Shown: one piece after another, positions 4,194-52,506 of the stretch | Layout of the letters: each line of letters opens with the position of its first letter | Numbering within the stretch: the stretch's first letter is position 1 | Notes under the pieces: generated by a model | Database searches by the model: none | What the model saw: only the letters and a program-made list of their open reading frames with translations | Told to the model about the DNA's origin: nothing | Virus record (IMG/VR): IMGVR_UViG_3300035698_022524 | Span: 1 to 52,909 of that record | Reading direction: 5' to 3' (one strand) | DNA length: 52,909 nucleotides | Source: a virus | Translations under genes and position numbers: made by a program

Positions 4194-6335
4194 CTAATTT
4201 CTCTTTACTTCACAATGCTCACTTAATGGCGCAAGTGCGTCAATAATGGTATATTTCATCTCATCCCTATCAATCATCATCCATTGATGCTTTTTCATCA
4301 CCTTCTTGATATAACCCGCCTGATTCTTAGCATACTGTTGATTCCTAGAAATACCTGTATTGGTAATAGCGTGCAAGAATGTATCGAGTGGCGCGTTATA
4401 TGGAACAAATATATATCTACATTGGTTCAGCATAGCTGGTGGTACTTTCTTAATTTCTTGTGTTGCAATTATATAATTAATGAAAAACCTTCTGTCAACG
4501 TCAAAACTTTCCTTTAACTCAATAGTGGTAATAGTTTCTTGATTTTCTGGGACAAACCTACTCAACTCATCAACAACAATAAAAATACCAGGAATTAAAT
4601 CTAATCGCCTAGCGTGAATTATCTTCCGTAACATAATAGTCATGAAAACTTGTGGCAAACTAGCCGCATCCCTACCGAACGCATCAAAATTCTCCATGTT
4701 GAAACTGAATAGCACACTTTGTTTCATAGCAGGCAAAATATCAAAGCAATATTCATCAACAAAAAATTTACTGAACAATATTGGTTTAAATTTACGCTTA
4801 ATTGCAACAACTTGCGTTTCCTTCAAATCATCCATTAAATCAATAATATCATAAACTTGGTCTAAGCTATTGAAAACTGGTAATTTTTGAATGCCATCCC
4901 AAATTTCCTCTAATAGAATCCGTTGTGTGGGTGTTAAATTATGATAATCTAACAACATCATAAAATCTCCTTTAGTCATGTCGTTCAACCTAACACTAAA
5001 CCATTCATTATCTTTTGATAATTTATTATATGGTACACGTAAACTACTGAAGAAGCTTGGTCGTAATGTTAATACTTCCATACCTGTAGGCTTTTCGCCC
5101 TTGATTAATAAATGCTGAAATTTAAATTGTACAGGTCTAACAGAAGAATTATGTGTAAGTATTTTATTATCTAAAATAAAATTATTAGTTTGAGGCACAC
5201 ATATATCTATGACTTTTCTTTTGCCAACACATTTAATGCTTTTTATTTTAGCGAAGACTAGTTGTTCTATCTTTGAATGAAATATTTTATTACATTCTAA
5301 ACATTTTTGCACACCAAACAATTTATCTCCAACATTCAAATCTTTTAATTTTACTTCCTTTCCCGCATATCCAAAAAATTTATGTTCATTAGAACAAGTT
5401 ATTTTTCTACCATCCTCAAATTCAATTTCATAGCATTCTTTTTCAATTATTTTTGTTTTTTGAAAATCACATGGAATAATTTGCTTTGTATTATAATCAT
5501 ACCCTAGAACTTTGTCCTTGTTGGGTTTTAATTTTCCTACCTTTTTTCTTCCTTTAGTTGTTAATACATATTGATTTATATCTAGGCATTTCATTTCGTC
5601 CTTGACATCCACAGCAAACAAAGAAATAAAACCAATTTGTGCCACTCTATCCATAAGTCCTCTCAAAACAAATGTCTTGCCAGAATTATGAGTGAGAATG
5701 CCATTACTAAGAAAAAAATTATGATTATCTTGAACTTCAATATCATATGTTCTTCTCACTCCAACACTTTTAATTGACTTAATACAACATGATAGTCCAC
5801 AATATTTTTTATAATCTAAAATATCCTTATTACACCATTTACATTTCGTTTGTTTATATTCAAACAAATCATCCCCATCCTTTAAATCTTTTAATTGAAC
5901 AACTTTACCATCTGCTAAAAAAAATTTATGGTCTGCACTTGCAATTATTTTTTCACCATTTTCCAGTTCAATTTCAAAGCATTCTTTATCTTGTGCTGGG
6001 TATTTAATTATTTTTTTATATTCTTGTTTTTTTGTTTCAAAATTATAACTTAATACCTTATGTCCAGAATTAATATTTTTTATCTGTTTGTTTCCTCTAC
6101 TACACTTTATTAATGTGTTTTCATCTAAGCAACCTGCCGCACCACATAATAAAGTTCTAGTACCATCTTTAATATCCAAGCACACTAATTCTTTTGTGTT
6201 TGCATCAAACCCAACCGGCAGTTTATCTTTAGAATAGCTAAATTTTTGTTTCTTGGGTGTAAATAATTCTTTCTTTATATATTCATTACCGAACTCACGT
6301 ATATATTGAATACCCGTTCTAAACTCATCACTCAT
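4194..6335 (-). CDS. HerA/VirB4-like P-loop ATPase precursor with two inteins
   Basis: Starting at ATG 6335 (a TTG at 6347 is possible) the precursor is 713 residues. After splicing both inteins the host protein is about 417 residues. The extein Walker A is split GAAG/SGKT at residues 65-72/218-221 by intein 1. Intein 2 sits after DVKDEMK (243-249). Walker B is IFIVVDELSRF in the C-terminal half, followed by a region (MLNQCRYIFVPYNAP) that resembles the sensor/arginine part of HerA/VirB4 ATPases. HerA-fold motors pump DNA or drive secretion, which fits the surrounding membrane genes. It overlaps the preceding gene by 8 bp. A conjugation-like role is inference; the ATPase fold and inteins are clear. 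Confidence 0.8.
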   Translation of the reverse strand: MSDEFRTGIQYIREFGNEYIKKELFTPKKQKFSYSKDKLPVGFDANTKELVCLDIKDGTRTLLCGAAGCLDENTLIKCSRGNKQIKNINSGHKVLSYNFETKKQEYKKIIKYPAQDKECFEIELENGEKIIASADHKFFLADGKVVQLKDLKDGDDLFEYKQTKCKWCNKDILDYKKYCGLSCCIKSIKSVGVRRTYDIEVQDNHNFFLSNGILTHNSGKTFVLRGLMDRVAQIGFISLFAVDVKDEMKCLDINQYVLTTKGRKKVGKLKPNKDKVLGYDYNTKQIIPCDFQKTKIIEKECYEIEFEDGRKITCSNEHKFFGYAGKEVKLKDLNVGDKLFGVQKCLECNKIFHSKIEQLVFAKIKSIKCVGKRKVIDICVPQTNNFILDNKILTHNSSVRPVQFKFQHLLIKGEKPTGMEVLTLRPSFFSSLRVPYNKLSKDNEWFSVRLNDMTKGDFMMLLDYHNLTPTQRILLEEIWDGIQKLPVFNSLDQVYDIIDLMDDLKETQVVAIKRKFKPILFSKFFVDEYCFDILPAMKQSVLFSFNMENFDAFGRDAASLPQVFMTIMLRKIIHARRLDLIPGIFIVVDELSRFVPENQETITTIELKESFDVDRRFFINYIIATQEIKKVPPAMLNQCRYIFVPYNAPLDTFLHAITNTGISRNQQYAKNQAGYIKKVMKKHQWMMIDRDEMKYTIIDALAPLSEHCEVKRN
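5148..5588 (-). mobile_element. Mini-intein 2 in the HerA-like ATPase
   Basis: 147 residues from Cys (CLDINQYVLTTKG) to the terminal ILTHN, followed by Ser+1. Block B is SNEH. It lies 32 extein residues after intein 1, just behind DVKDE, a conserved strand end of HerA-type ATPases. Endonuclease is absent apart from a CLECNKIFH zinc-like remnant. The two inteins are clearly related in sequence, suggesting common descent. Confidence 0.82.
5685..6131 (-). mobile_element. Mini-intein 1 in the P-loop of the HerA-like ATPase
   Basis: 149 residues. Block A starts CLDENTLIK, block B contains SADH, block F is TYDIEVQDNHNF and block G ends GILTHN before Ser+1. It interrupts Walker A exactly between GAAG and SGKT, so splicing is needed for ATP binding. 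No LAGLIDADG or HNH domain is present. A CxxC...CxxxxCC segment (residues near CKWC and CGLSCC) may be a leftover zinc module of a lost endonuclease. Confidence 0.85.
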
Positions 6336-7002
6336 TTTCTTTATCAAACTCTCGCATCACCTGTTGTGCTTTGTCTGCTAAAGATTGAACATCATTCTCG
6401 GATGTGGTTTTTTGTCCAAGGTTGATATTCACGCCACCACGCTCTTGAGAATTATATGGGGAATTAAGTCTATCATATGGATTGAAGCCATTCCCTCCTC
6501 CGCCTGTGCTTTTATTGAATGGGTCAAATTTATGGAATGGGTTTATTATTTGTTGTGGACTTGGTTCACCCTCATAATATTCTATATCGTCCTTCACTAT
6601 ATTATAAATTACAATTATAACTTTCTTCCACCTTTTTAATGTGCCACTAATGCCTATAAATTCAACCGGTTTATTATTAGTGTCTGTATATGTTTTCTTT
6701 ATTTGTTTTACATACTGTCCACCGGACCAATCTATAAAATCACCCTCTGGTCGCTTCAATAATAATTTATTTATACAATCGTAATAATATGCCATATCAT
6801 CTGTTCTTGGTTTATTCGTTTCTGGGTTTGTTTTTGAAGTAATTAATAATAATCCAGCACTAATGACTGTTACCAATGATAAAACGACAATACCTGCCAA
6901 AACATACCTATTAGAAAAATAACCAAGCTGTATAGCTGAAACTAGCAATAAACCAAAGCCCATAATAATAAATGCCCATTTAACAGGGGTGAAGTTTACC
7001 AT
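6328..7002 (-). CDS. Membrane protein, two N-terminal TM segments and soluble domain
   Basis: 224 residues from ATG 7002 (GTG 7011 also possible). Two TM helices (about 8-27 and 32-54) are followed by a soluble domain and a Gly/Asn/Pro-rich low-complexity linker (KSTGGGGNGFNPYDRLN), ending in a helical acidic tail. It is directly upstream of, and overlapping, the HerA-like ATPase, as expected of a membrane partner that docks the motor. That role is inferred from context. Confidence 0.65.
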   Translation of the reverse strand: MVNFTPVKWAFIIMGFGLLLVSAIQLGYFSNRYVLAGIVVLSLVTVISAGLLLITSKTNPETNKPRTDDMAYYYDCINKLLLKRPEGDFIDWSGGQYVKQIKKTYTDTNNKPVEFIGISGTLKRWKKVIIVIYNIVKDDIEYYEGEPSPQQIINPFHKFDPFNKSTGGGGNGFNPYDRLNSPYNSQERGGVNINLGQKTTSENDVQSLADKAQQVMREFDKENE

Positions 7003-22283: not shown

Positions 22284-23764
22284 AAAATAAACAACCTATA
22301 AGAGTTTTAGAATTATTTGCAGGATATGGCGGATGTAGTTTCGCACTTAAGCAAGCAAAAATAGATTTTGAAACAATTGGGTTTAGCGAAATTGATAAGT
22401 ATGCAATACAATGTTATAAACAGAACCATGGCGATATAAAAAATTATGGTGACGCACAAAAAATTGTGGCAGAAGAATTACCAGACTTTGATTTATTGAC
22501 CGGGGGATTTCCATGTCAATCTTTTAGTATATCCGGAAAGCGTAAAGGGTTTGAAGAAACCAAAGGTACATTATTCTTTGATATAGTTAGAATTGCTAAG
22601 ATTAAAAAACCAAAGTTTATGTTACTTGAAAATGTCAAAGGGTTAGTGAACCATAATGGTGGCGACACATTTAAAATTATATATAGAACGTTGCGTGAAC
22701 TAGGGTATGGTGTAATATATAAAGTTCTTAATAGTAAACATTATGGTATACCACAGAATAGAGAACGAGTGTGGTTAATTTGTAAGCTTGGTGGTTGGGA
22801 TTTTATGGAGTTTACACTTCCCAAGAAAACGTCATTGAAATTAACAATAAAAGACATACTAGAAAAGGATGTTGATAGTAAATATTATTTAAGTGAACGA
22901 ATGATTGCTGGCATTAAGAAATCAAACTATCAGGATAGAAAACCACTCAATATTGATAGAGAATGTAAAACTTTGAAAGTTGGCGGTGACACACCATGCT
23001 TTAAAAATGATAAATGTGTTGTAGCTGGAACTTTAAATGTCATTGCAAAGAAGCGAAGTTTTGAAACACCAAAAGAAATCAATGAATACTTAAAAAGCAA
23101 TAAAGGTGCTTTTACTATTGACCAACTTGCAACCGCTCTTAATATTCCAAGCACACAGGTTGCACATTATTTTAGAAGTGATGCAAGTCGAACTATACCA
23201 TCACCTGAAATATGGTTAAAATTAAAAACATTATTAAAGTTTGATGATAAGTTTGATAAGAATGTGATTAGTGTGTATGAAAAATTAATAACATTTGAGC
23301 AAAGTAGACGAATTTATAGTAGTGATGGGTGTAGTCCAACAATCAGTGTTGCGAAAGAATCAGTTATTGCTGATTGGAGATATGATGAGGGATTAAGAAT
23401 TAGAAAAGATAATTGTAGTCCAACCTTGACACGGGCAATGGGCGATGGTGGTGGACATGTACCACTAATTTGTGCAAGCCGTGGGCGTGATGGCACTGAC
23501 AAAACAGAGCAACACCTTGAATATAGAAAGGATGAGTGTAGTAATACATTAACAAGCGTACAGAAAGATAATTTGCTTATGGTAAATCACGGCTGGCGAA
23601 GACTGACGCCGAAAGAATGTTTCCGTTTGATGGGTTTTTTGAACGATGAGATTAATTTGGATGGTATTAGCGACACACAACGATATAAACTGGCGGGCAA
23701 TGGCTGGGATATAAACGTGGCAAGTTTAATATTGGGTAATATGTTCAAGGGTGTTAAATTTTAA
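22274..23764 (+). CDS. DNA cytosine-5 methyltransferase (Dcm-like)
   Basis: 496 residues. Motif I is LELFAGYGGCS (13-22), motif IV GGFPCQS with catalytic C81, motif VI LLENV (118-121), motif VIII QNRERV (161-166), and motifs IX/X lie at the end (TPKECFRLMGF, LAGNGW). The long target-recognition region contains an inserted helical domain (EYLKSNKGAFTIDQLATAL...STQVAHYFRSD) resembling an HTH. It also has three Cys-Ser-x-T repeats (GCSPTIS, NCSPTLT, ECSNTLT). It overlaps its neighbours at both ends (10 bp and 1 bp). Confidence 0.88.
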   Translation: MVLKNKQPIRVLELFAGYGGCSFALKQAKIDFETIGFSEIDKYAIQCYKQNHGDIKNYGDAQKIVAEELPDFDLLTGGFPCQSFSISGKRKGFEETKGTLFFDIVRIAKIKKPKFMLLENVKGLVNHNGGDTFKIIYRTLRELGYGVIYKVLNSKHYGIPQNRERVWLICKLGGWDFMEFTLPKKTSLKLTIKDILEKDVDSKYYLSERMIAGIKKSNYQDRKPLNIDRECKTLKVGGDTPCFKNDKCVVAGTLNVIAKKRSFETPKEINEYLKSNKGAFTIDQLATALNIPSTQVAHYFRSDASRTIPSPEIWLKLKTLLKFDDKFDKNVISVYEKLITFEQSRRIYSSDGCSPTISVAKESVIADWRYDEGLRIRKDNCSPTLTRAMGDGGGHVPLICASRGRDGTDKTEQHLEYRKDECSNTLTSVQKDNLLMVNHGWRRLTPKECFRLMGFLNDEINLDGISDTQRYKLAGNGWDINVASLILGNMFKGVKF

Positions 23765-25023
23765 TGGTTGAAAAAATATTAATATATGATATCGAAACAG
23801 CGACAATAGATGGTAAACCAAACCCCAATAAAGATATATTAAAAATATTTGGTTGTTATAGTTATATAACTAAAAAATATTATTATTTAACAAGCATTGA
23901 AGACATACAAAAAACAATTGAAGCACATGATTTCCTCGTTGGTTTCAACACGTTAAAATATGATAATATTGTGTTGTATAATAGTGGATTAAAAGATAAA
24001 ATGTTCACTAATAAGTTTGGTGATGCAAGCTTCAAGTACAAGAACAACATTGACATGATGGATGTTTTTAAGAAGCGTGCAGGCGCTATGAAGATTAAAA
24101 AAGGCATGCTTGGCGAGTTACTAATGAGCTATAGCTTGGATTTTATATCCAAAACTATTGGTATAGTAACGGATGAAGATGGTAAGATTAAAGATTTTGA
24201 TTATAGTGTACTAAGTAAAAATTCATGGAACCCAGAGGAGAGAAAATATATAATTGATTATACTCAGCGTGATTTAGATGTAACAATGAAAATGTATGAG
24301 TGGTTGGAAGCTTATTTTAAAGATTGGCGTACACTTGTTTCTCAAAAAGACGTAAGTAATAAACAATATTTGACTTGTACACCAGCGGTTTTTGCATATA
24401 AAGCAGTTTGCAAGATGGCATTATTAAAAGAAGAATATAATAGTAATGCAGAAAGAAAAATAAAATTTGGTGGTGGTTATGTTGCACTACCTACTGGCGA
24501 AAGGTTTGAAGGCAATATTCTTCTGTTTGATTTTTCTTCACTTTATCCAAACCTATTTATTATGGGGAATTTATTTGCAACCGATTGTGATTGTTGTAAT
24601 GATGAAGAATTATGGAAAGGGGATGGATTTTTTAATATTATAGGAGGCACATGTAAAAAGAAATTACATTTACTTAGTGAAACATTAAAAAATGTATATA
24701 TAAAACGTGTAGAGTTAAAAAAAATATTTTCACCCAAGGAATATTCATTAAAAATAGTAATAAATTCTCTCTATGGTGCAATATCAAACCCTGTATTTAA
24801 AAATGTTTATAATTTAATAGCAGCTAAAAATTGTACATCTTTAGGACGACAATTTATTTTATATTCACGTAAACGATTTAGAGAAGCAGGATATAAAAAT
24901 ATAATGAGTGATACAGATAGTATAGCAATTCTAATACCAGAAGGAAAAACAAAAGAAGACGCAGAACAAATAGCTAATAGCATTGTAGATGAATTATTAT
25001 CACACATGCCGTTTGCGTGGTGA
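23764..25023 (+). CDS. polB: DNA polymerase family B, N-terminal part (exonuclease + palm)
   Basis: 419 residues. Exonuclease motifs: Exo I YDIET (D9, E11), Exo II NTLKYD (D67), Exo III YTQRD (Y166, D170). Polymerase motifs: A LLFDFSSLYPNLF (D256), B KIVINSLYGA (K330-A339), C MSDTDS (D383, D385). There is no N-terminal domain before Exo I, so the enzyme is compact. The chain stops at SHMPFAW just after the palm; the thumb is encoded after a homing endonuclease gene, at 25810. Start overlaps the C5 methylase stop by 1 bp (TAATG). Confidence 0.9.
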   Translation: MVEKILIYDIETATIDGKPNPNKDILKIFGCYSYITKKYYYLTSIEDIQKTIEAHDFLVGFNTLKYDNIVLYNSGLKDKMFTNKFGDASFKYKNNIDMMDVFKKRAGAMKIKKGMLGELLMSYSLDFISKTIGIVTDEDGKIKDFDYSVLSKNSWNPEERKYIIDYTQRDLDVTMKMYEWLEAYFKDWRTLVSQKDVSNKQYLTCTPAVFAYKAVCKMALLKEEYNSNAERKIKFGGGYVALPTGERFEGNILLFDFSSLYPNLFIMGNLFATDCDCCNDEELWKGDGFFNIIGGTCKKKLHLLSETLKNVYIKRVELKKIFSPKEYSLKIVINSLYGAISNPVFKNVYNLIAAKNCTSLGRQFILYSRKRFREAGYKNIMSDTDSIAILIPEGKTKEDAEQIANSIVDELLSHMPFAW

Positions 25024-25030
25024 AGTATAT

Positions 25031-25056
25031 AATAAAAACATTCATATATAATAACA
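25031..25056 (+). promoter_or_regulatory. Promoter of the inserted homing endonuclease gene
   Basis: AATAAAAACATTCATATATA, closely resembling the tandem element at 36421-36472 (ATAAAAACATTTATATA). It lies about 20-40 bp before ATG 25073 and predicts a leaderless mRNA, so the endonuclease carries its own promoter. Confidence 0.5.
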
Positions 25057-25072
25057 AGTTTAATACAATATA

Positions 25073-25816
25073 ATGAAAAAAGGACAAAAAAAAGGAGAAC
25101 GTTGGGGAAAAGAGATACCTTGCCCTATTTGTAATACTCTTTTTTATGTTTCTATTGCAAATAAAGATAGAAAAACTTGTAGTAAAAAATGTATGTATGA
25201 ATGGAAGAAAAAAACATTAGGTGAAGACAAAAAATGTATATATTGTAAAAAAATATTTCATACTGCAAAATGTACGAAACGAAAATATTGTTCAAGGAAA
25301 TGTTACTTCGATAATTTAAGGGAAAACAAGCACTTACATCCAAATTATGGTGGTGGCAAATATATAAAATGTAAATTATGTGATAATTTATTTTGGACTA
25401 CCCCATATTATGAGAAAAAAAATCATACTTATTGTTCGATGAATTGTTATATGAAAGACCCACAATCTCCAAATAAACAATATGGTGAAAACAATCCTAT
25501 GTTTAATAGCAAACATAGGGAAAGTGTGCGCAAAGCTATAATTGAACACATAAAAAAGACAAGTGGTTTTGGTATAGGAAAAAATGAAAAAAATTTATTA
25601 GACCATATGGAAATATGGTACAATATAAAAATTATTAGGTCATATGAAACATGTGGGTATATATTAGATGGGTATTGTAAAGAATTAAATATATCATTTG
25701 AAATTGATGAAAAACACCATAATGAAAAAAAGATTAAAATTAAAGACAAAAAAAGACAAAAAATAATTGAAACAAAATTAAAATGTATATTTATACGGGT
25801 GAATGATGAATGGTAA
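25073..25816 (+). CDS. Homing endonuclease (zinc-finger repeats + EDxHD/Vsr-like nuclease) inside polB
   Basis: 247 residues. Three treble-clef-like CxxC...CSKKC/CSRKC/CSMNC modules occupy residues 15-125. The C-terminal nuclease resembles the Vsr/EDxHD group: YILDGYCKELNISFEIDEKH, then a Lys-rich helix and CIFIRVNDEW. It sits between the palm and thumb coding parts of polB and overlaps the thumb ORF by 7 bp. Flanking non-coding sequence (about 50 bp upstream, none downstream) is too short for an ordinary group I intron. It therefore looks like a freestanding gene that split its host. Confidence 0.75.
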   Translation: MKKGQKKGERWGKEIPCPICNTLFYVSIANKDRKTCSKKCMYEWKKKTLGEDKKCIYCKKIFHTAKCTKRKYCSRKCYFDNLRENKHLHPNYGGGKYIKCKLCDNLFWTTPYYEKKNHTYCSMNCYMKDPQSPNKQYGENNPMFNSKHRESVRKAIIEHIKKTSGFGIGKNEKNLLDHMEIWYNIKIIRSYETCGYILDGYCKELNISFEIDEKHHNEKKIKIKDKKRQKIIETKLKCIFIRVNDEW

Positions 25817-26436
25817 AAATGTTTCAATTTAAAATAGATGCTGAAATAACACATATTTTTTTTATAAAAAGCAAAGAAAAATATGAGCATAAAGATAATG
25901 AAGTATTAGATTGTGATGATAACCAAATGATAGCTAATAATGAAATATATCTTAAGAAAAATTATTTATATATAACTACTGATAATAAAATAACATATAA
26001 AAACCTTGGTGTTAAAAAGAAGAGCACTAGTAAATTAACACGGCATATTTTTAGAAATATTTTAATGCCAAAAATATTGGAAGAAAAACAAATAAAATTC
26101 AGTAAATTGTTTTACAAAAATTTAATTCAACAATTACTTGAAAAAGATTTAACATTAGCAACTATAAGATATAGGGTTTCCCCACCACAAACTTACGCAA
26201 GCGCTTCATCCATTCACGCACAGATTGCAACCAAGTATGGTGCTGGCATACACTTGCTTGTCCCTAACACGAAAATTGGTGTTGGCAAGGCAAAACATTA
26301 TTGTACAATGGAAGAATTTAAGCAAGCAAATTTGAACTTAAGCCACATTGAATTAAAGAATGTATGGGCAGAGCTTGGCTATTTTATCAAACAAAAGCCT
26401 AAAATAAATTTGACTACTTTCTTGGGTGGTGATTAA
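25810..26436 (+). CDS. polB: DNA polymerase family B, C-terminal part (thumb)
   Basis: 208 residues beginning MVKMFQFKIDAEITHIFFIK, the segment that follows motif C in family B polymerases, with KKNYLYITTDNKITYKNLGV (the KKxY-type thumb motif). It continues the first part with almost no missing residues (SHMPFAW + FQFKIDAE). GGGTGA 8 nt before ATG 25810 lies inside the endonuclease 3' end, implying independent translation. The two parts are in the same frame. Expected to associate with the 419-residue part to form an active enzyme. Confidence 0.8.
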   Translation: MVKMFQFKIDAEITHIFFIKSKEKYEHKDNEVLDCDDNQMIANNEIYLKKNYLYITTDNKITYKNLGVKKKSTSKLTRHIFRNILMPKILEEKQIKFSKLFYKNLIQQLLEKDLTLATIRYRVSPPQTYASASSIHAQIATKYGAGIHLLVPNTKIGVGKAKHYCTMEEFKQANLNLSHIELKNVWAELGYFIKQKPKINLTTFLGGD

Positions 26437-26823
26437 ATGACTTGGTTCAATATACCAGAAGGTTATAGCGAGCTACAAGGCTTTGTTTATATTATTACCA
26501 ATATGGTGAATGATAAAAAATATGTTGGTAAGAAAAACTTTTGGACAATACAAAAGCGAAAGCCATTGAAAGGGCGTAAGAATAAACGACATAGAAAGGT
26601 TGAAACAGATTGGAAAAATTATTGGGGTAGTTGCAATAATTTATTAGCAGATATAGAGGCGTGTGGTAAAGAAAATTTTGAGCGTGAAATAATTGCCGTG
26701 TATAAAAGTAAATTTGATTTGGCTTATTATGAAGCAAAGTATCAATTTGATAAGGAAGTATTGTTTAGAGAAGACTTTTACAATCAAATTATAAATATTA
26801 GATTACGGAGGCAATCAAAATGA
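26437..26823 (+). CDS. GIY-YIG family endonuclease-like protein
   Basis: 128 residues. GFVYIITNMVNDKKYVGKKN gives the YI...YVG pair, and the following DWKNYWGSCNNLLADIEACG..NFEREI with a later Glu in YYEAKYQ matches phage GIY-YIG (Seg-like) proteins. It starts directly after polB, a common spot for freestanding homing or repair nucleases. Target unknown. Confidence 0.7.
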   Translation: MTWFNIPEGYSELQGFVYIITNMVNDKKYVGKKNFWTIQKRKPLKGRKNKRHRKVETDWKNYWGSCNNLLADIEACGKENFEREIIAVYKSKFDLAYYEAKYQFDKEVLFREDFYNQIINIRLRRQSK

Positions 26824-40035: not shown

Positions 40036-42025
40036 AGGACTAGGAATTGGTAAAAAGAAATTAATCAATAAAATAATAACTGAAAATTTTGGTATTGATA
40101 ACCCTAAGGTTAAGAAATATAATTATTTAGAATTGTTATATATAATACAAGAGATGACCGCTGAAGAAGGTAAGAAATATCATGAAAAAGGTTTAACTAA
40201 AAGAGGCCATACAATATTTAGAGAGTTTGTTAAGTATCTATTGTATAGAAATGTTGCAAATTTTGACAGTATGGTTTTGATAACTAGTATAAAAGGTTGT
40301 TTTTTTTTAGATACAAAAATAAAGACAAAAAAGTATGGTAATATTTCGTTTAAAGATTTAGTTGAAAAGAAAAAAGATTTGAAACCGGATATTTATTCCT
40401 ATGATAAAAAATTAAATAAAACCATAGATAGTTTTGGAGTAATAATAGATTCAGGAGTGCAACCAGTATATAAAATAACATTAAAATCAGGAAAAACAGT
40501 GACTGCAACAGATAAACATCCTTTTTTTATTAAAGAAAAAAATGGTAATATTAAAGAAATAAAATTAAAAAATTTAAAGAAAGGAGATAAAATCATTGCG
40601 ATAAAAAAGAGTACTATATATTTTGAAGAAATTGAAAGAATTGAATTTGTAGGTAAAGAACAAACATACGATATGCATGTTCCTGAATATAATAATTTTA
40701 TATTAGCTAATGATATATTAACCCATAATACAGGTAAAAGTAGTGCAGCTATGATGATAGCTAAAGAGTGGTGTAAATTATTAGGGATTCAATTTAGTCC
40801 AAAAAAACATATAGCTTATACAAATGCGGACATGATGCACAAAATTGATACACTACCGAAATTTTCTCCATTGATAGCAGATGAAGCGGTTAACTTTTGC
40901 TGTTTAGCAGGGTCAACAAAAGTGATGATAGAGGATAATAATGGAATTAGTGAAGTTAAAATAGAAGATTTAGAAGGTAGAAAAGATTTTAAAATCTTAT
41001 CAATGAATCAAAAAACAAAAGAATTAGAATATAAAGAAAATGGCGGATGTTATTATACTGGTGAACAGGAAACCTTTGAAATTGAGTTAGTTAATGGAGT
41101 AAAAATACAAGCTACTGAGGAACATTTATTTTTAAGAAGAAGAAGAACTAAAATAAAGAATAAAGCAATATATGTTTATAAATGGGTAAAATTAAAAAAT
41201 TTAAAAGAAACTGACGATATTGTTTTTTACCAATCTTGTAAAATATGTAGTAAGTTATTTTTAAATAGTAGGATGAATAAAGTAACATGTAGTAAAGAAT
41301 GTGGATATATTAAAAAGAAAAAATATGATAATATATATGGCTGTAAAAAATCTAAGGAGATGAAGGGAAACAAAGAATGGAATAAAAGAAGAAATAATTC
41401 TAATAAAAAATGGCTAAATAATAATAAAGAAAAAGCTAAAAAGACTAGAATAGAATATAATAAAAGACCCGAAATAATAGAAAAAAAACAAAACTATATG
41501 AAGGAATATGCTAAACAACCAGAAAATAAAATAAAAAATAAAGAATATATGCAAGAATATCAGAAAATATGGTCACAAAAAAATCCAGAAAAAATTAAAA
41601 AATACCAAAAAGATTGGAAAAAAAAAAATCCAAAATATTATAACAAATATAGAAAAGAAAGAAAAAAATTTGATATTAATTATAGAATGAAATGCCATTG
41701 TTCTTCTACAATAAATAATAAATTAAAAAGAAATTTACTAAAATTAAAAAAAACAGAAGGGACTATTGAATTAATTGGAACTTCTATACAAGGTTATATT
41801 GACCATTTAGAAAAACAATTTAAACCAGGAATGACTTGGGAAAATTGGGGAAAATATTGGGAAATTCATCATATTAAAGAAATAGATAGATTTAATTTAA
41901 CAATTAAAAAAGAAAGATTAAAAGCATTTCATTATTTAAATGTGAAACCTATTACTGTTGAGGAACATAGAAAATTAACTACATTATATATGAAAGAGAA
42001 AAGAGGAGTCGCTAATGAAAATTAA
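40028..42025 (+). CDS. Motor ATPase N-part: mini-intein in P-loop plus N-half of split intein with HNH
   Basis: 665 residues. N-extein 1-90; mini-intein 91-234 inside Walker A (SIKG/TGKSS); extein 235-291 with Walker B PLIADEAVNF; then the N-terminal splicing half of a second intein from C292 (CLAGSTKVMI, block B TEEH). A zinc module (CKIC...CSKEC), Lys/Tyr-rich repeats (KNPEKIKKYQKDWKKKNP) and an HNH nuclease (WEIHHIKEIDRF ... NVKPITVEEHRK) follow, and the chain stops with TAA. The remainder is in the next ORF. Fully spliced host protein would be about 370 residues, a Zot/HerA-like P-loop ATPase. Confidence 0.8.
   Translation: MFEGLGIGKKKLINKIITENFGIDNPKVKKYNYLELLYIIQEMTAEEGKKYHEKGLTKRGHTIFREFVKYLLYRNVANFDSMVLITSIKGCFFLDTKIKTKKYGNISFKDLVEKKKDLKPDIYSYDKKLNKTIDSFGVIIDSGVQPVYKITLKSGKTVTATDKHPFFIKEKNGNIKEIKLKNLKKGDKIIAIKKSTIYFEEIERIEFVGKEQTYDMHVPEYNNFILANDILTHNTGKSSAAMMIAKEWCKLLGIQFSPKKHIAYTNADMMHKIDTLPKFSPLIADEAVNFCCLAGSTKVMIEDNNGISEVKIEDLEGRKDFKILSMNQKTKELEYKENGGCYYTGEQETFEIELVNGVKIQATEEHLFLRRRRTKIKNKAIYVYKWVKLKNLKETDDIVFYQSCKICSKLFLNSRMNKVTCSKECGYIKKKKYDNIYGCKKSKEMKGNKEWNKRRNNSNKKWLNNNKEKAKKTRIEYNKRPEIIEKKQNYMKEYAKQPENKIKNKEYMQEYQKIWSQKNPEKIKKYQKDWKKKNPKYYNKYRKERKKFDINYRMKCHCSSTINNKLKRNLLKLKKTEGTIELIGTSIQGYIDHLEKQFKPGMTWENWGKYWEIHHIKEIDRFNLTIKKERLKAFHYLNVKPITVEEHRKLTTLYMKEKRGVANEN
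40298..40729 (+). mobile_element. Mini-intein in the P-loop of the second motor ATPase
   Basis: 144 residues from C91 (CFFLDTKIK) to N234 (ILTHN), Thr+1. Block B is TATDKHPFF and block F TYDMHVPEYNNF. No endonuclease. It occupies the same position in the Walker A loop as intein 1 of the HerA-like ATPase at 5685, i.e. G/(S,T)GK. Confidence 0.85.
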
Positions 42026-42119
42026 GTCTATAAAAAAGAAAAATATAATTAAAACTTATGATATTGTAAAAGTCACTGATAATAATAATTATATTTCTAA
42101 TAGTATAGTAGTTCATAAT
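40901..42119 (+). mobile_element. Naturally split intein with HNH endonuclease
   Basis: The N-half (40901-42022, 374 residues) has blocks A and B and an HNH nuclease. The C-half (42015-42119, 35 residues) has block F TYDIVKVTDNNNYISN and block G SIVVHN with Ser+1. The halves lie in different frames; the C-half has its own ATG preceded by AGAGGAG at 7 nt spacing, and an in-frame TGA blocks any upstream extension. The split point matches that of classical split inteins (C-half near 35 residues). Confidence 0.75.
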
Positions 42120-42791
42120 AGTGGGGCAGAATGGAATAAAAAATCCAACAAACAATTAAAAATAAAATTAGCACAAGTACGTACGCGTAAATTGCTCATG
42201 ATTTTATGTTACCCCCTTAAAATCCAACGTATTGAAACTAATTACCTAAACTCGTTTGTTAATTATTGGATACATTTATTTGGAAGAGGAAGCGGTGGAA
42301 TATTTGTACCAGATATGAATCCAGCTAATGACCCATGGAGAATAAAAGCGTTCTTAAAATTAGGTTCATATACTGAATTTACCCAGATGACAAAAATTGA
42401 AGGGATATTAAAAAAGCATCCAAACTTTTGGACGAGTATTAAATTTCCTAAACCACCTAAGTGGTTATACAGTTCTTACTTAAAAGTTAGAGAGAAGAAT
42501 GTTTATGATAGTGATGATATTTTAAATAGTGTTTCAAATGATGATATAATAAGAGCTTTAATGATTTTAGCATTAAGAGATATTGTAACAAATGATAGCA
42601 CACTTACAATGAATAGATTAATGTTACATATTAAAAACAAATATGATATTAGTTTAAAGAAACAAATGATTTTTGACATATTAGAAGACTCAAAACAATT
42701 AGTTCTAAAAGTACAAGAGAAAGCAGTAGGGATAAAAAATCCTAAGAAAGAGATTGTTATGAGTGAAAAAGAAGTAGAAATAGAAGCATGA
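42015..42791 (+). CDS. Motor ATPase C-part preceded by C-terminal split-intein half
   Basis: 258 residues. Residues 1-35 are the C-intein; the C-extein begins at S36 (SGAEWNKKSNKQLKIKLAQV) and includes RTRKLLMILCYPLKIQR, a segment resembling the sensor/arginine part of Zot- and HerA-like ATPases, then GRGSGGIFVPDMNPANDPW. The C-terminal 80 residues are helical with an HTH-like look. It must be trans-spliced to the 40028 product to restore the ATPase. It overlaps that gene by 11 bp and the next by 4 bp. Confidence 0.75.
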   Translation: MKIKSIKKKNIIKTYDIVKVTDNNNYISNSIVVHNSGAEWNKKSNKQLKIKLAQVRTRKLLMILCYPLKIQRIETNYLNSFVNYWIHLFGRGSGGIFVPDMNPANDPWRIKAFLKLGSYTEFTQMTKIEGILKKHPNFWTSIKFPKPPKWLYSSYLKVREKNVYDSDDILNSVSNDDIIRALMILALRDIVTNDSTLTMNRLMLHIKNKYDISLKKQMIFDILEDSKQLVLKVQEKAVGIKNPKKEIVMSEKEVEIEA

Positions 42792-47200: not shown

Positions 47201-47594
47201 TCAAGTTCCATCTACTATTCCGGCATTTGTTCAAGTTCCTTCAGAAATACCAAGTGAAATTCCAACAGAAATTCCTACAACAATACCATCAGAAATTCCT
47301 ACAACAATACCATCAGAAATTCCAACCGGTATTCCAGCAAATACTTTTTCATTTAGAAAAGGTTTACCACCATTACCATACAAATCTTTTAAGATGGGTA
47401 GACAATCTAGTAGAGCTAGAGCATATGGAAGAAGTAAACGAAGATGGGTATATACTAATAAAATGAAAGACTTAGGTTCAGATTGGAAAAAGAAATTATT
47501 ATTAAAAGAATTAAAATTAAAGCAATCACGAAAATTGGCTAAGGGAAAAACAACAAATAATTTAGCTAAGATGTTATGGAAGGGTAAAAAATGA
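44217..47594 (+). CDS. Giant membrane/structural protein with Ile-Pro-Ser repeats and basic tail
   Basis: 1125 residues. The N-terminal 400 residues are Ser/Thr/Pro-rich and charged. The centre (about 450-770) has several Ala/Gly-rich hydrophobic helices (AAQLAAGAVLPLPAAGKVIS, AAGVIASSPLVQSVSQ). Residues about 915-1040 form a P-[ST]-x-I-P repeat region (IPSEIPTTIPSEIP). The last 80 residues are strongly basic (RQSSRARAYGRSKRRWVY). No known fold. Size, repeats and basic end suit a virion, pilot or envelope structural protein; inference. Confidence 0.65.
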   Translation: MIDYRSQSLGNITGGGSISTDYSRMVATGNSGKSTSSTKKKKVSESSSSSSRGSSGSSQIIQPIPVAAAPTTSSNIVTPSATKTINPSQGAVYYTSTPGWTPKDLNATVIMMGEQGKLTGDIYKGTGSDWQQVDTNVAAYKPSEGDLRPVPTVRQALQTVSNTDQKTTSRLGQSIGSSFASQQRDMGVSSQDSPSLDYRNPSLYDTRQSINPLYSPEKSPGLQKPSEFKNVDFFGGRDDPVSRGMEDYSQSKTNIETKKEISFGTDDNVVSRGVKEYKQEKKEFDSKYQVLDGNIYETTKIKTLRSLTEITPEDKQILDNYQRDLQIESEKQSEAYGLKEELGSALSFLKPTNIAKGVKNIGKDWWAGMKAGGKATRQTQEALKYDLDYKPYDPNSKDIMGTMDYLKNPFKSWKSNRDTELQTAERVESEMTPEEQRVIQKAQDVNVIAAQLAAGAVLPLPAAGKVISKVAKGALYTTLGGSLAWGVGTLAESPDSKIDDFLRIGGKTAIGTGVAVAATTGNLPVLGNYALGVTKLGLTGGGVAKSIYGIGTEGAKAEQKFDNINMEKSDMQDIIYSTKKKVQGDIYSDIMGTVGKVPVVGKPVGFAAGVIASSPLVQSVSQIPVERYDAKTYEYAYQQAMDKGYTQKTAEDFANKVMKFSTADNVAFTTAVITGVEATTEAKGQEALVKAIKGLEGKGKEVIAKKAPDLLWKLQGGSTPWLTGGEGAVYTTLQNYAYGEKTTPAQMATVIPASTFIGQGINKVITKATAARDINKALIKMGQKGNVKSGYTPFQEKVVSTTANIAELEESGGDKWAMFMSKLFKKEVPTMKIRMKTIFSKPKVVASTTIKPNIVTDSLTMQAIGTSTPVVTFGTTKAASGIVETLPSYIGRRATSFVSSFLSNFGKSESKDVSVVPSPSSPATIPSNLPAITEIPSKIPATIPSNLPAITEIPSKIPATIPTRETTPYTIPGDIFIPSKLPSEIPSDVPSEIPNQVPSTIPAFVQVPSEIPSEIPTEIPTTIPSEIPTTIPSEIPTGIPANTFSFRKGLPPLPYKSFKMGRQSSRARAYGRSKRRWVYTNKMKDLGSDWKKKLLLKELKLKQSRKLAKGKTTNNLAKMLWKGKK
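46980..47087 (+). repeat. 54-bp tandem repeat, two perfect copies
   Basis: The unit starts CCAGCAACAATTCCAAGTAA and repeats exactly at 47034. It encodes 18 residues of the Ile-Pro-Ser region. Perfect identity indicates a recent duplication. Confidence 0.85.
47268..47315 (+). repeat. 24-bp tandem repeat, two copies
   Basis: GAAATTCCTACAACAATACC ATCA occurs twice head to tail, and a third partial copy follows. It encodes EIPTTIPS units of the same protein. Confidence 0.8.
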
Positions 47595-47674
47595 TTGAAA
47601 CAACTTCACAATACTGTTTTAATCAACATATAGAAAAGAATAGTTATATAAATAATAAAAGCTATAAATGTAAT

Positions 47675-48772
47675 ATGAAACATACATTAGAAGAATTTAA
47701 ACAATTAGCCAAAGAAAAAGGCGGAGAATGCCTTTCAAGTGAATATATTTCTACAGATAGAAAGTTATTATTTAAATGTAAAAAAGGTCATGAATGGGAA
47801 ACTAGAGCAGATTCAATTTTAACTAATCATTGGTGTAAAAAATGCGCAGATAGTAAATATACATATACTATTAAAGATTTTCAAAAGTATGCAGAAAGTA
47901 AAGGAGGACAATGTTTATCAGTTAAATATGAAGGACCAACTGTTAAATTATCATTTAAATGTAAAGAAGGACATGAATGGACAGTTTTTCCCCAGCCTAT
48001 ATTAGAAGGTGGATGGTGTAGAAAATGTAATTATAAAAATGCTCCAACAAGAATTACTATTGAAGATATTAAGAAAAAAGCAATTGAAAGAGGATTTGAA
48101 TGTTTATCAAATGAATATAAAAATAAACAAAAATTATTATTTAAATGTAAAAATGGGCATGATTTTAGTATAAGAAGAGACCAATTATATGGAACTACTG
48201 GCTGTAAATATTGTAAATATGCAGAATTAAGTATAAGAAATTCTGTTCCAACAAAATATAGTATTAAGGACTTTCAAGATTATGCAAAAGAAAGAGGAGG
48301 TAGATGTCTTTCAAAAGAATATCTTAATGGTAAACAAAAAATAAAAATGGAATGTAAAAAAGGACATATCTGGGAAGCTGACAGTAGGTCATTATTATAT
48401 CAAAAGTCCTGGTGTAAAAGATGTAATGAAAAAAAAGCTGAAAAAGAATGTAGGGAAGTATTTGAAGAAATATTTAATAAACCATTTAAAAATTGTAGGC
48501 CTAATTTTTTAAAGAATCATAAAACAGGATATAATTTAGAATTAGATGGATATAATGAAGAATTAAAAATAGCATTTGAATATAATGGAAAACAACATTA
48601 TGAAGAAAATTGTTTTAATATGAAAACAAAATTAGAATATATACAAAATAATGATAAATTAAAAAACAAATTATGTAAAAAAAATGGTATTAAATTAATA
48701 ACAATTCCATATACCATTAAAAATTATGTAAATTTTATAGTAGAAAAATTAAAAGGTATTTTAAATGAATAA
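47675..48772 (+). CDS. Freestanding homing endonuclease: zinc-ribbon repeats + EDxHD-type nuclease
   Basis: 365 residues from ATG 47675 (an in-frame ATG at 47591 overlaps the giant gene's stop, but a TATA element at 47641-47660 favours the later start). Four repeats of about 65 residues share GG.CLS.EY...KLLFKCKKGHEW...WC.KC (DUF723-like). The C-terminal nuclease reads LELDGYNEELKIAFEYNGKQ HY. Related to the polB-splitting gene at 25073. It sits between two structural genes. Confidence 0.72.
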   Translation: MKHTLEEFKQLAKEKGGECLSSEYISTDRKLLFKCKKGHEWETRADSILTNHWCKKCADSKYTYTIKDFQKYAESKGGQCLSVKYEGPTVKLSFKCKEGHEWTVFPQPILEGGWCRKCNYKNAPTRITIEDIKKKAIERGFECLSNEYKNKQKLLFKCKNGHDFSIRRDQLYGTTGCKYCKYAELSIRNSVPTKYSIKDFQDYAKERGGRCLSKEYLNGKQKIKMECKKGHIWEADSRSLLYQKSWCKRCNEKKAEKECREVFEEIFNKPFKNCRPNFLKNHKTGYNLELDGYNEELKIAFEYNGKQHYEENCFNMKTKLEYIQNNDKLKNKLCKKNGIKLITIPYTIKNYVNFIVEKLKGILNE

Positions 48773-51070: not shown

Positions 51071-51071
51071 G

Positions 51072-51330
51072 TCAATCACCCCGTCCTAAAGAACGGGGCT
51101 TGAGAAGTAATTCTTAAGAGCAATTGGTTGATTAGATGGTTGAAAAAATGGAAAACATACAACAGCAGTTTGGAAAGAGAAATACATGCATACCTACAAA
51201 TACTTCTCTAGTTTGTAGCTCTATGGTTTTATCTTTAAAGAAAGAGGTAACTCTTAGTGAGCAAAACTTAAAAACTTTTTCAAACAACATCGAAGAGAAC
51301 CAACTGTCTTGTAAGACAGAACGAACCACG
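51072..51330 (+). ncRNA. Candidate HEARO / omega RNA of IscB
   Basis: IscB guide RNAs are encoded directly upstream of the protein. This stretch has a GC-rich hairpin (51079-51098), inverted AATTCTTAAGAG sequence and a second stem CTGTCTTGTAAGACAG (51307-51322). The corresponding IscB residues 1-65 look unlike IscB protein, consistent with RNA-constrained sequence. The guide would come from just outside the left end. Boundaries uncertain. Confidence 0.45.
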
Positions 51331-52506
51331 AGTGTATTCGTTATTAACTTACGAAAACAACCTTTAATGCCAACAACACCTAGAAATGCGAGAAAGTTAT
51401 TACAACAGAAAAAAGCAAAAGTTGTTAGTTGTAAACCTTTTACAATACAACTTTTACAAGCCACTGGTGAAACAAAACAAGAAATAACGCTTGGAATAGA
51501 TAGTGGTTACAAAAAAATAGGTTTCAGTGCAATAACAAAGAAACAAGAATTAATCAGTGGAGAATTAAAATTGAGAACTAATGTAAGTGATAAACTTACA
51601 GAACGAGCAATGTATCGAAGGAATAAAAGAAATAAGTTATGGTATAGACAACCAAGATTTATGAACAGAGTTTCTTCAAAAAAGAAAGGTTGGTTACCTC
51701 CAAGTGTAAAACATAAAGTGGAATCTCATATTAGATTGGTTAATAAGATAAAAACTTTTTTACCAATTACAAAAACAATCATCGAGGTTGCTAAATTTGA
51801 TGCTCAAAAATTACAAAATGTAGATATTGAAGGAGTAGAATATCAACAGGGACAAATGAAAGGATATGATAATCTAAGAGCGTTTGTATTACAAAGAGAT
51901 AATTATACTTGCCAAATTTGTAAAAAGAAAGAAGGAATATTTGATGTTCACCACATTATTCAAAGAAAAGATGGAGGTAGTAATCGACCAGACAATCTTT
52001 CAACTTTACATATAAAATGTCATAAAGATTTCCATAGTGGAAAAATTAAACATATTTTCAATAAAACTAAATCATTCAAACAAACAGTAATTATGAATAA
52101 TATTAGAAAATATATAGTTGATAAAATAGGGTGTAATTATACTTTTGGTTATATTACTAAAAGAAAAAGATTAGAGTTAGGATTAGATAAAACACATTAT
52201 AATGATGCTTTTGTAATTGCAAGTGGAACAACTCAAATAAGAAGTAAAATATTATTAAGTAAACAAATTAGAAGAAATAATAGATGTTTACAAATTAATC
52301 GTAAAGGTTTCAAACCTAGTATTAGAAGAAAAAGATATAATATTCAATCAAATGATGTAGTTCAATATCAAGGAAGAAAATTAATTGTTAAAGGAATGTT
52401 TAATTATGGTAAATGGATTAGAATGGTTGATAATTTTGGAAATATAATTAATTCAAATGTGAAGAATGTAGAGGTGAAATATTATGGAAAAGGAATACAA
52501 ATTTAA
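51136..52506 (+). CDS. iscB: IscB, RNA-guided RuvC-HNH nuclease
   Basis: 456 residues in the open frame. The IscB-specific PLMP domain is at about 67-100 (VFVINLRKQPLMPTTPRNAR). RuvC I is LGIDSGYKK (D122), the bridge helix RRNKRNKLWYRQPRF, RuvC II IIEVAKFD (E217). The HNH domain has CQIC...DVHHIIQRKDGGSN (H272, H273) and HIKCH; RuvC III is KTHYNDAF (H354, D357). Catalytic residues are intact. Residues 1-65 probably overlap the guide RNA, so the protein may start later than 51136; no ATG lies immediately before PLMP. Ancestor-type of Cas9. Confidence 0.9.
   Translation: MVEKMENIQQQFGKRNTCIPTNTSLVCSSMVLSLKKEVTLSEQNLKTFSNNIEENQLSCKTERTTSVFVINLRKQPLMPTTPRNARKLLQQKKAKVVSCKPFTIQLLQATGETKQEITLGIDSGYKKIGFSAITKKQELISGELKLRTNVSDKLTERAMYRRNKRNKLWYRQPRFMNRVSSKKKGWLPPSVKHKVESHIRLVNKIKTFLPITKTIIEVAKFDAQKLQNVDIEGVEYQQGQMKGYDNLRAFVLQRDNYTCQICKKKEGIFDVHHIIQRKDGGSNRPDNLSTLHIKCHKDFHSGKIKHIFNKTKSFKQTVIMNNIRKYIVDKIGCNYTFGYITKRKRLELGLDKTHYNDAFVIASGTTQIRSKILLSKQIRRNNRCLQINRKGFKPSIRRKRYNIQSNDVVQYQGRKLIVKGMFNYGKWIRMVDNFGNIINSNVKNVEVKYYGKGIQI

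Follow-up and report, generated by a model that had tools for sequence, protein, structure and literature searches.

A putative homing endonuclease gene divides the family B DNA polymerase gene of an apparent archaeal virus-like element at the palm–thumb boundary

The DNA analysed here, hereinafter the window, is a 52.9-kb IMG/VR virus record (IMGVR_UViG_3300035698_022524). It contains MCM-like, PCNA-like, and RFC-like genes, which point to an archaeal virus-like element as its most likely source. The family B DNA polymerase gene (polB) of this element lies in two pieces on the same strand, and a third open reading frame (ORF), predicted to encode a freestanding homing endonuclease, stands between them (Table 1). 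An earlier note on this DNA had described polB as split in this way into genes of 419 and 208 residues by a nuclease gene of 247 residues. The three ORFs are found where it placed them, and the polymerase pieces are colinear with unsplit relatives. The same note spoke of an archaeal replicative polymerase; the enzyme is rather that of an archaeal mobile element, not that of the host archaeon.

Between them, the two pieces contain the exonuclease, motifs A, B, and C, and the KKxY motif that characterise family B polymerases. Specifically, the N-terminal piece contains motif A (DFSSLYP), motif B (KIVINSLYG), and motif C (SDTDS), and matches Pfam DNA_pol_B above cut-off (4.4e-14), while the KKxY motif is in the C-terminal piece, the thumb. 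The thumb piece alone has no family match in profile searches. A profile match to archaeal PolB structures was obtained at 1.6e-17.

Single-sequence scans of viral and genome collections found no close relatives. A search with a general PolB alignment returned 80 polymerases, T4-like or otherwise distant, whose divergence precluded placing the junction. With a degenerate motif scan, only distant PolBs came up, and searches in the phylum of a haloarchaeon and in that of a Nitrososphaerales metagenome-assembled genome (MAG) produced nothing beyond generic PolB matches. Among 279 genomes of the phylum containing a Nanoarchaeota MAG, there was one strong match (E 2e-75), on contig 11 of genome G188, where polB (L101) is a 635-aa open frame. 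An alignment of the window and G188 polymerases, used as the query, led to L150 (IMGVR_UViG_3300000563_000018), a 27-kb IMG/VR contig with baseplate and sheath (contractile-tail) genes, and a further scan led to L154 (IMGVR_UViG_3300023435_000002), a 59-kb IMG/VR contig. The search for an intact polB in relatives, advised in the earlier note, has thus yielded three, each encoding a single polymerase chain of 621–632 aa. These relatives represent a small lineage of family B polymerases lacking the usual N-terminal domain, and clamp-like and glycosyltransferase-like genes lie near polB in G188 contig 11 and L154.

Both window pieces align end to end with the three unsplit polymerases. Almost no polymerase residues had been thought to be missing; at the junction none is missing relative to L150, L101, or L154. 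Identity to L150, the closest relative, is 46% for the N-terminal piece and 47% for the thumb (thumb match 1e-48), identity to L101 is 38% and 36%, respectively, and the thumb is also colinear with L154. Joined at W419 and the lysine encoded at 25816–25818, the window reads MPFAW/KMFQFKID, without gaps relative to VPFPYTGFDMGID in L150, VPFPQETFDMGID in L101, and IPFPQDTFDMDID in L154. In archaeal PolB structures, the split site corresponds to the point where the last palm helix ends, downstream of motif C and ahead of the KKRY strand, with profile position 400 aligned to Tgo residue 572 and to residue 594 of the Pyrococcus abyssi chain. A structure model of L150 PolB was mediocre (predicted local distance difference test score, pLDDT, 64; Foldseek match with a low template modeling score of 0.3–0.4) and was used solely to place the split after a helix. 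A near-direct repeat, TGGTGAA (25018–25024) and TGGTAAA (25811–25817), is present at the insert ends; it could be a trace of insertion and is within chance by a rough estimate.

The intervening ORF matches DUF559 at E 0.003, below the curated cut-off, and NUMOD3 at E 0.09, and its zinc-finger region matches phrog_1271, annotated as ‘HNH endonuclease’, at 1.7e-8. A search of the PDB with this nuclease gave no match. A homolog on G188 contig 11 (L147:13679-14401, minus strand) matches DUF559 above cut-off (1.2e-5), and DGYCKELN and HH are conserved in both proteins, the window match to DUF559 itself being sub-cut-off. Apart from this homolog, no full-length relative of the nuclease was found; viral contigs gave one short match only. 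The homolog is free-standing, flanked by a 64-aa gene and a primase-like gene at a distance of ~7 kb from the unsplit polB, indicating that members of this nuclease family are present in these elements independently of polB. The proposal that a zinc-finger/Vsr-like gene resembling freestanding homing endonuclease genes interrupts polB is borne out in that polB is contiguous in the three relatives and no splicing element was found.

The thumb ATG overlaps the nuclease stop codon by 7 nt (ATGGTAA), and the GGTGA site that precedes it lies inside the end of the nuclease ORF. A site as good as this one precedes 5% of all ATGs in the window versus about half of the genes checked; the thumb Shine-Dalgarno site reported earlier inside the nuclease ORF is thus real and uncommon, and the thumb is probably translated from the start codon at 25810. 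No Shine-Dalgarno site is present before the nuclease ATG. Two TATATAATA boxes lie 20–28 and 39–47 nt upstream of this ATG, and the nuclease may have a leaderless message of its own. The TATA promoter previously assigned to the nuclease is plausible only: the two boxes are in the leader, but by consensus matching the window contains eight TATATAATA boxes versus 5.25 expected.

These observations are best explained, with a probability of about 0.8, by fission of a mobile-element polB by a freestanding homing endonuclease gene, with the polymerase working as two chains. Specifically, a gene encoding zinc fingers, a NUMOD3-like stretch, and a Vsr/DUF559-like nuclease would have inserted into polB of the archaeal virus-like element at the palm–thumb boundary, downstream of motif C and upstream of the KKxY motif. 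The nuclease gene appears to have brought no splicing device, and the polymerase would consequently be translated as two polypeptides, with the ribosome-binding site and start codon of the thumb contained in the final codons of the nuclease gene. As no recognisable intron or intein is there to take the nuclease gene out, synthesis of the polymerase as two separate proteins, which then have to assemble, is almost certain. By analogy with known split enzymes, the exonuclease-palm-fingers chain and the thumb chain would associate non-covalently into one active enzyme, and the nuclease would be active and home into unsplit polB.

The G+C content at third codon positions (GC3) of the window polB changes around the insert. 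Over the first 279 codons GC3 is 0.24; it drops to 0.12 in the 140 codons that precede the nuclease, is about 0.14 after the nuclease, and then is 0.35–0.36 in the rest of the thumb gene. The low-GC3 flanks look like sequence imported with the nuclease by double-strand-break repair (co-conversion). No such dip is present in two of the three intact relatives, and it is marginal in L150 (P 0.04). In the window, the dip gives P<0.0002 in an amino-acid-stratified permutation, for boundaries chosen after the profile had been seen.

That choice of boundaries is one of several points that weigh against endonuclease-driven fission. The nuclease family assignment comes from weak profile matches, the AlphaFold model of the nuclease is useless (pLDDT 40), and the evidence is the sequence of one metagenomic contig. 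The window polymerase evolves faster than its relatives (N-part branch 0.75 versus 0.37 for L150). No near relative (>50% identity) was found, with or without the nuclease, and hence the insertion event is undated and the exact insertion base is uncertain by one codon.

A first alternative is that the polymerase is dead or dying, the nuclease having broken polB and left the thumb ORF as a remnant, as the fast overall evolution of the polymerase, and the possibility that a 53-kb element uses the host polymerase, would allow. We consider this improbable, as both pieces are full length and open and keep all motifs. At columns invariant in the three intact relatives, the thumb is preserved as well as the N-terminal piece (47/70, 67%, and 91/138, 66%, respectively; Fisher P 0.88), a comparison that would be powerless if the insertion were very recent. 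The window branch relative to the rest of the tree, by arithmetic from branch lengths, is 0.44 for the N-terminal piece and 0.43 for the thumb. Judged from these residues, the thumb ORF is without sign of decay.

Alternatively, polB may have been split first, by loss of an intein or intron or by recombination, and the nuclease may have moved into the gap later. This order of events was proposed for gene 43 of Aeromonas phage 25 because phage 44RR has 43A and 43B split without a homing endonuclease gene (PMC2988022), erratic intein excision has been invoked for split archaeal PolB3 genes (PMC4104785), and the window element contains several inteins. However, the junction is seamless to one codon, and the extra non-coding DNA amounts to 49 nt on the 5’ side of the nuclease ORF and 0 nt on the 3’ side, leaving no trace of another insert. 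All three relatives are unsplit as well, and we consider a prior split improbable.

An RNA intron of the group I, group II, or archaeal bulge-helix-bulge type that contained the nuclease gene, and whose splicing gave a one-chain polymerase, would also be inserted in phase and be seamless at the protein level. We regard an intron as very unlikely. The 49 and 0 nt outside the nuclease ORF are, as had been noted before, too little for a normal self-splicing intron, although some intron ORFs do overlap the ribozyme core. Rfam gave no group I or group II intron match over 24600–26300 even at E<=5; the four matches that it listed are to unrelated families and far below their thresholds. Bulge-helix-bulge introns need little sequence, and the archaeal host is a reason to test for one. 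In a simple scan of our own with random-place controls, the best in-frame bulge-helix-bulge candidate near the junction was no better than chance, with a score of 12 versus a random mean of 12.7; 75% of the controls did equally well, and the precise position of the seamless junction scored −5. Moreover, the thumb has its own start codon and Shine-Dalgarno site, which an intron would not need.

An assembly chimera or sequencing error, conceivable in a single metagenomic contig, is highly improbable, because polymerase pieces lie on both sides in order and orientation, the neighboring methylase gene and the downstream small gene are in the same order as in the relatives, and composition changes are gradual. 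Protein trans-splicing by a split intein, of which the same element has one elsewhere (40028–42791), and ribosomal bypassing of the insert can practically be dismissed, as profile searches detected an intein domain neither in the N-terminal piece nor in the thumb, the junction leaves no space for one, and we know of no precedent for bypassing of 795 nt.

The proposed fission of polB by a freestanding endonuclease gene has several counterparts. Dassa et al. 2009 reportedly described ‘fractured genes’ with split inteins and a Vsr-like endonuclease between the halves. In the window, too, a freestanding gene for a putative Vsr-like endonuclease interrupts an enzyme gene, but without any intein sequence: the pieces end and begin at the junction, leaving no room for intein halves. 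A review lists three genes split by homing endonuclease genes, namely Aeh1 nrdA (mobE), T4 topoisomerase (mobA), and Aeromonas phage 25 gene 43 (PMC2988022). The earlier note had drawn a parallel to Aeh1, which is fair, but it overlooked the closer phage 25. As in the window, two genes encode the family B polymerase of phage 25, and a freestanding homing endonuclease gene separates them; in the phage 25 record, 43A (498 aa), a GIY-YIG endonuclease gene, and 43B are consecutive. The gene 43 halves co-purify and are active, and whether the endonuclease gene caused the split was left open (PMC2988022). The arrangement is therefore already known for the same enzyme family in a bacterial virus. The two cases differ in the endonuclease (GIY-YIG versus zinc-finger/Vsr-like), in an additional group I intron in 43B, and in the split point: in phage 25, motif A (SLYP) is in 43A and 43B begins 50 residues before motif B (NSLYG), whereas the window polymerase is split after motif C.

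Aeh1 nrdA-a/mobE/nrdA-b is similarly an essential gene that a freestanding homing endonuclease gene has broken in two, and a functional enzyme forms from the two chains (PMC2988022), but the enzyme is a ribonucleotide reductase, the endonuclease is HNH, and the phage is bacterial. In T4, insertion of mobA splits a core replication gene, topoisomerase 39/60, into two chains (PMC2988022). The enzyme is again a different one. T4 gene 60 contains a 50-nt bypass. Archaeal family B polymerases encoded by two genes are known from Methanobacteriales and Nanoarchaeum equitans, where the split is ascribed to erratic intein excision or the parts are trans-spliced by a split intein (PMC4104785). Those polymerases are cellular and have no endonuclease gene between the parts, unlike the mobile-element polymerase of the window. 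No report of a polymerase split by a homing endonuclease gene in an archaeal virus was found in the open-access literature, which is no proof of absence. Thus, the domain of life (as far as searched), the nuclease type, and the split point are new, while the principle is already known.

Table 1 Features of the polB locus and other mobile genes in the window
Feature	Position	Strand	Description
PolB N-terminal fragment, 419 aa	23764..25023	+	Exonuclease, palm, fingers; ends ...SHMPFAW*
Left low-GC3 flank (0.12)	24601..25020	+	Possible co-conversion tract; GC3 profile
Inferred insert relative to unsplit polB, 795 bp	25021..25815	+	Multiple of 3, in phase; junction alignment
Leader, PolB-N stop to nuclease start, 49 nt	25024..25072	+	Two TATATAATA boxes (25026-25034, 25045-25053)
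Putative freestanding homing endonuclease, 247 aa	25073..25816	+	Cys-rich zinc-finger repeats, NUMOD3-like stretch, C-terminal DUF559/Vsr-like nuclease
GGTGA Shine-Dalgarno-like site	25798..25802	+	Inside nuclease ORF end, 7 nt before thumb ATG
PolB C-terminal fragment (thumb), 208 aa	25810..26436	+	Begins MVKMFQFKIDAE; KKxY motif = LKKNY
Right low-GC3 flank (~0.14)	25819..26160	+	Possible co-conversion tract; GC3 profile
SegE-type GIY-YIG gene	26437..26823	+	Directly 3’ of thumb gene; PF19835 4e-32
HerA/VirB4-like ATPase gene	4194..6347	-	Two intein-like insertions (CLDENTLIKC...HN-SGKT; CLDINQY...HN-SS)
TnpB gene	37022..38200	+	OrfB_IS605 and Cas12f1-like TNB
ATPase gene, first ORF	40028..42025	+	Contiguous intein at Walker A site (...SIKG-C...HN-TGKSS); N-intein half and HNH-like stretch at ORF end
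ATPase gene, second ORF	42015..42791	+	Starts with C-intein half (...IVVHN-SGAE); GAGGAG site before start
Gene for 393-aa protein	47591..48772	+	Treble-clef zinc fingers (DUF4379), C-terminal nuclease-like part
HEARO (omega) RNA	51071..51304	+	Rfam; overlaps mechanical ORF start of IscB-like gene
IscB-like gene	51136..52506	+	RRXRR and HNH

A C5 methylase gene adjoins the window polB, as in G188 contig 11. The SegE-type gene that follows the thumb gene is not found behind polB in L101, L150, or L154; the window polB thus has one nuclease gene within it and another, unrelated to the first, behind it. Inteins and nuclease genes are abundant in the window as a whole. In addition to the HerA/VirB4-like ATPase gene with its intein-like insertions, the TnpB gene, and the IscB-like gene with its associated RNA, the 393-aa protein is perhaps another freestanding homing endonuclease. 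A second ATPase gene contains, besides the intein at Walker A, another intein near the Walker B region, the halves of which lie in two ORFs, an arrangement that may come from a frameshift error.

At this ATPase gene, interrupted by a split intein that includes an HNH stretch, the layout is the same as at polB: at 42015, the downstream fragment starts within the end of the nuclease. At polB, the ribosome-binding site and start codon of the thumb lie inside the nuclease frame, so that only exact excision would restore the polymerase. It is conceivable, though we hold it with some doubt, that the nuclease is hard to lose and that a single archaeal element relies on parasite genes to express two of its core genes. 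If true, such dependence would be a general route from a parasite to a fixed multi-subunit enzyme.

The window extends gene fission by homing endonucleases, known from T4-like bacterial viruses, to an apparent archaeal virus-like element. It provides a family B polymerase that is naturally in two pieces, divided exactly where the palm meets the thumb, and because unsplit relatives are available for comparison, assembly, processivity, and homing are directly testable. It also suggests that split archaeal polymerases could arise without inteins.

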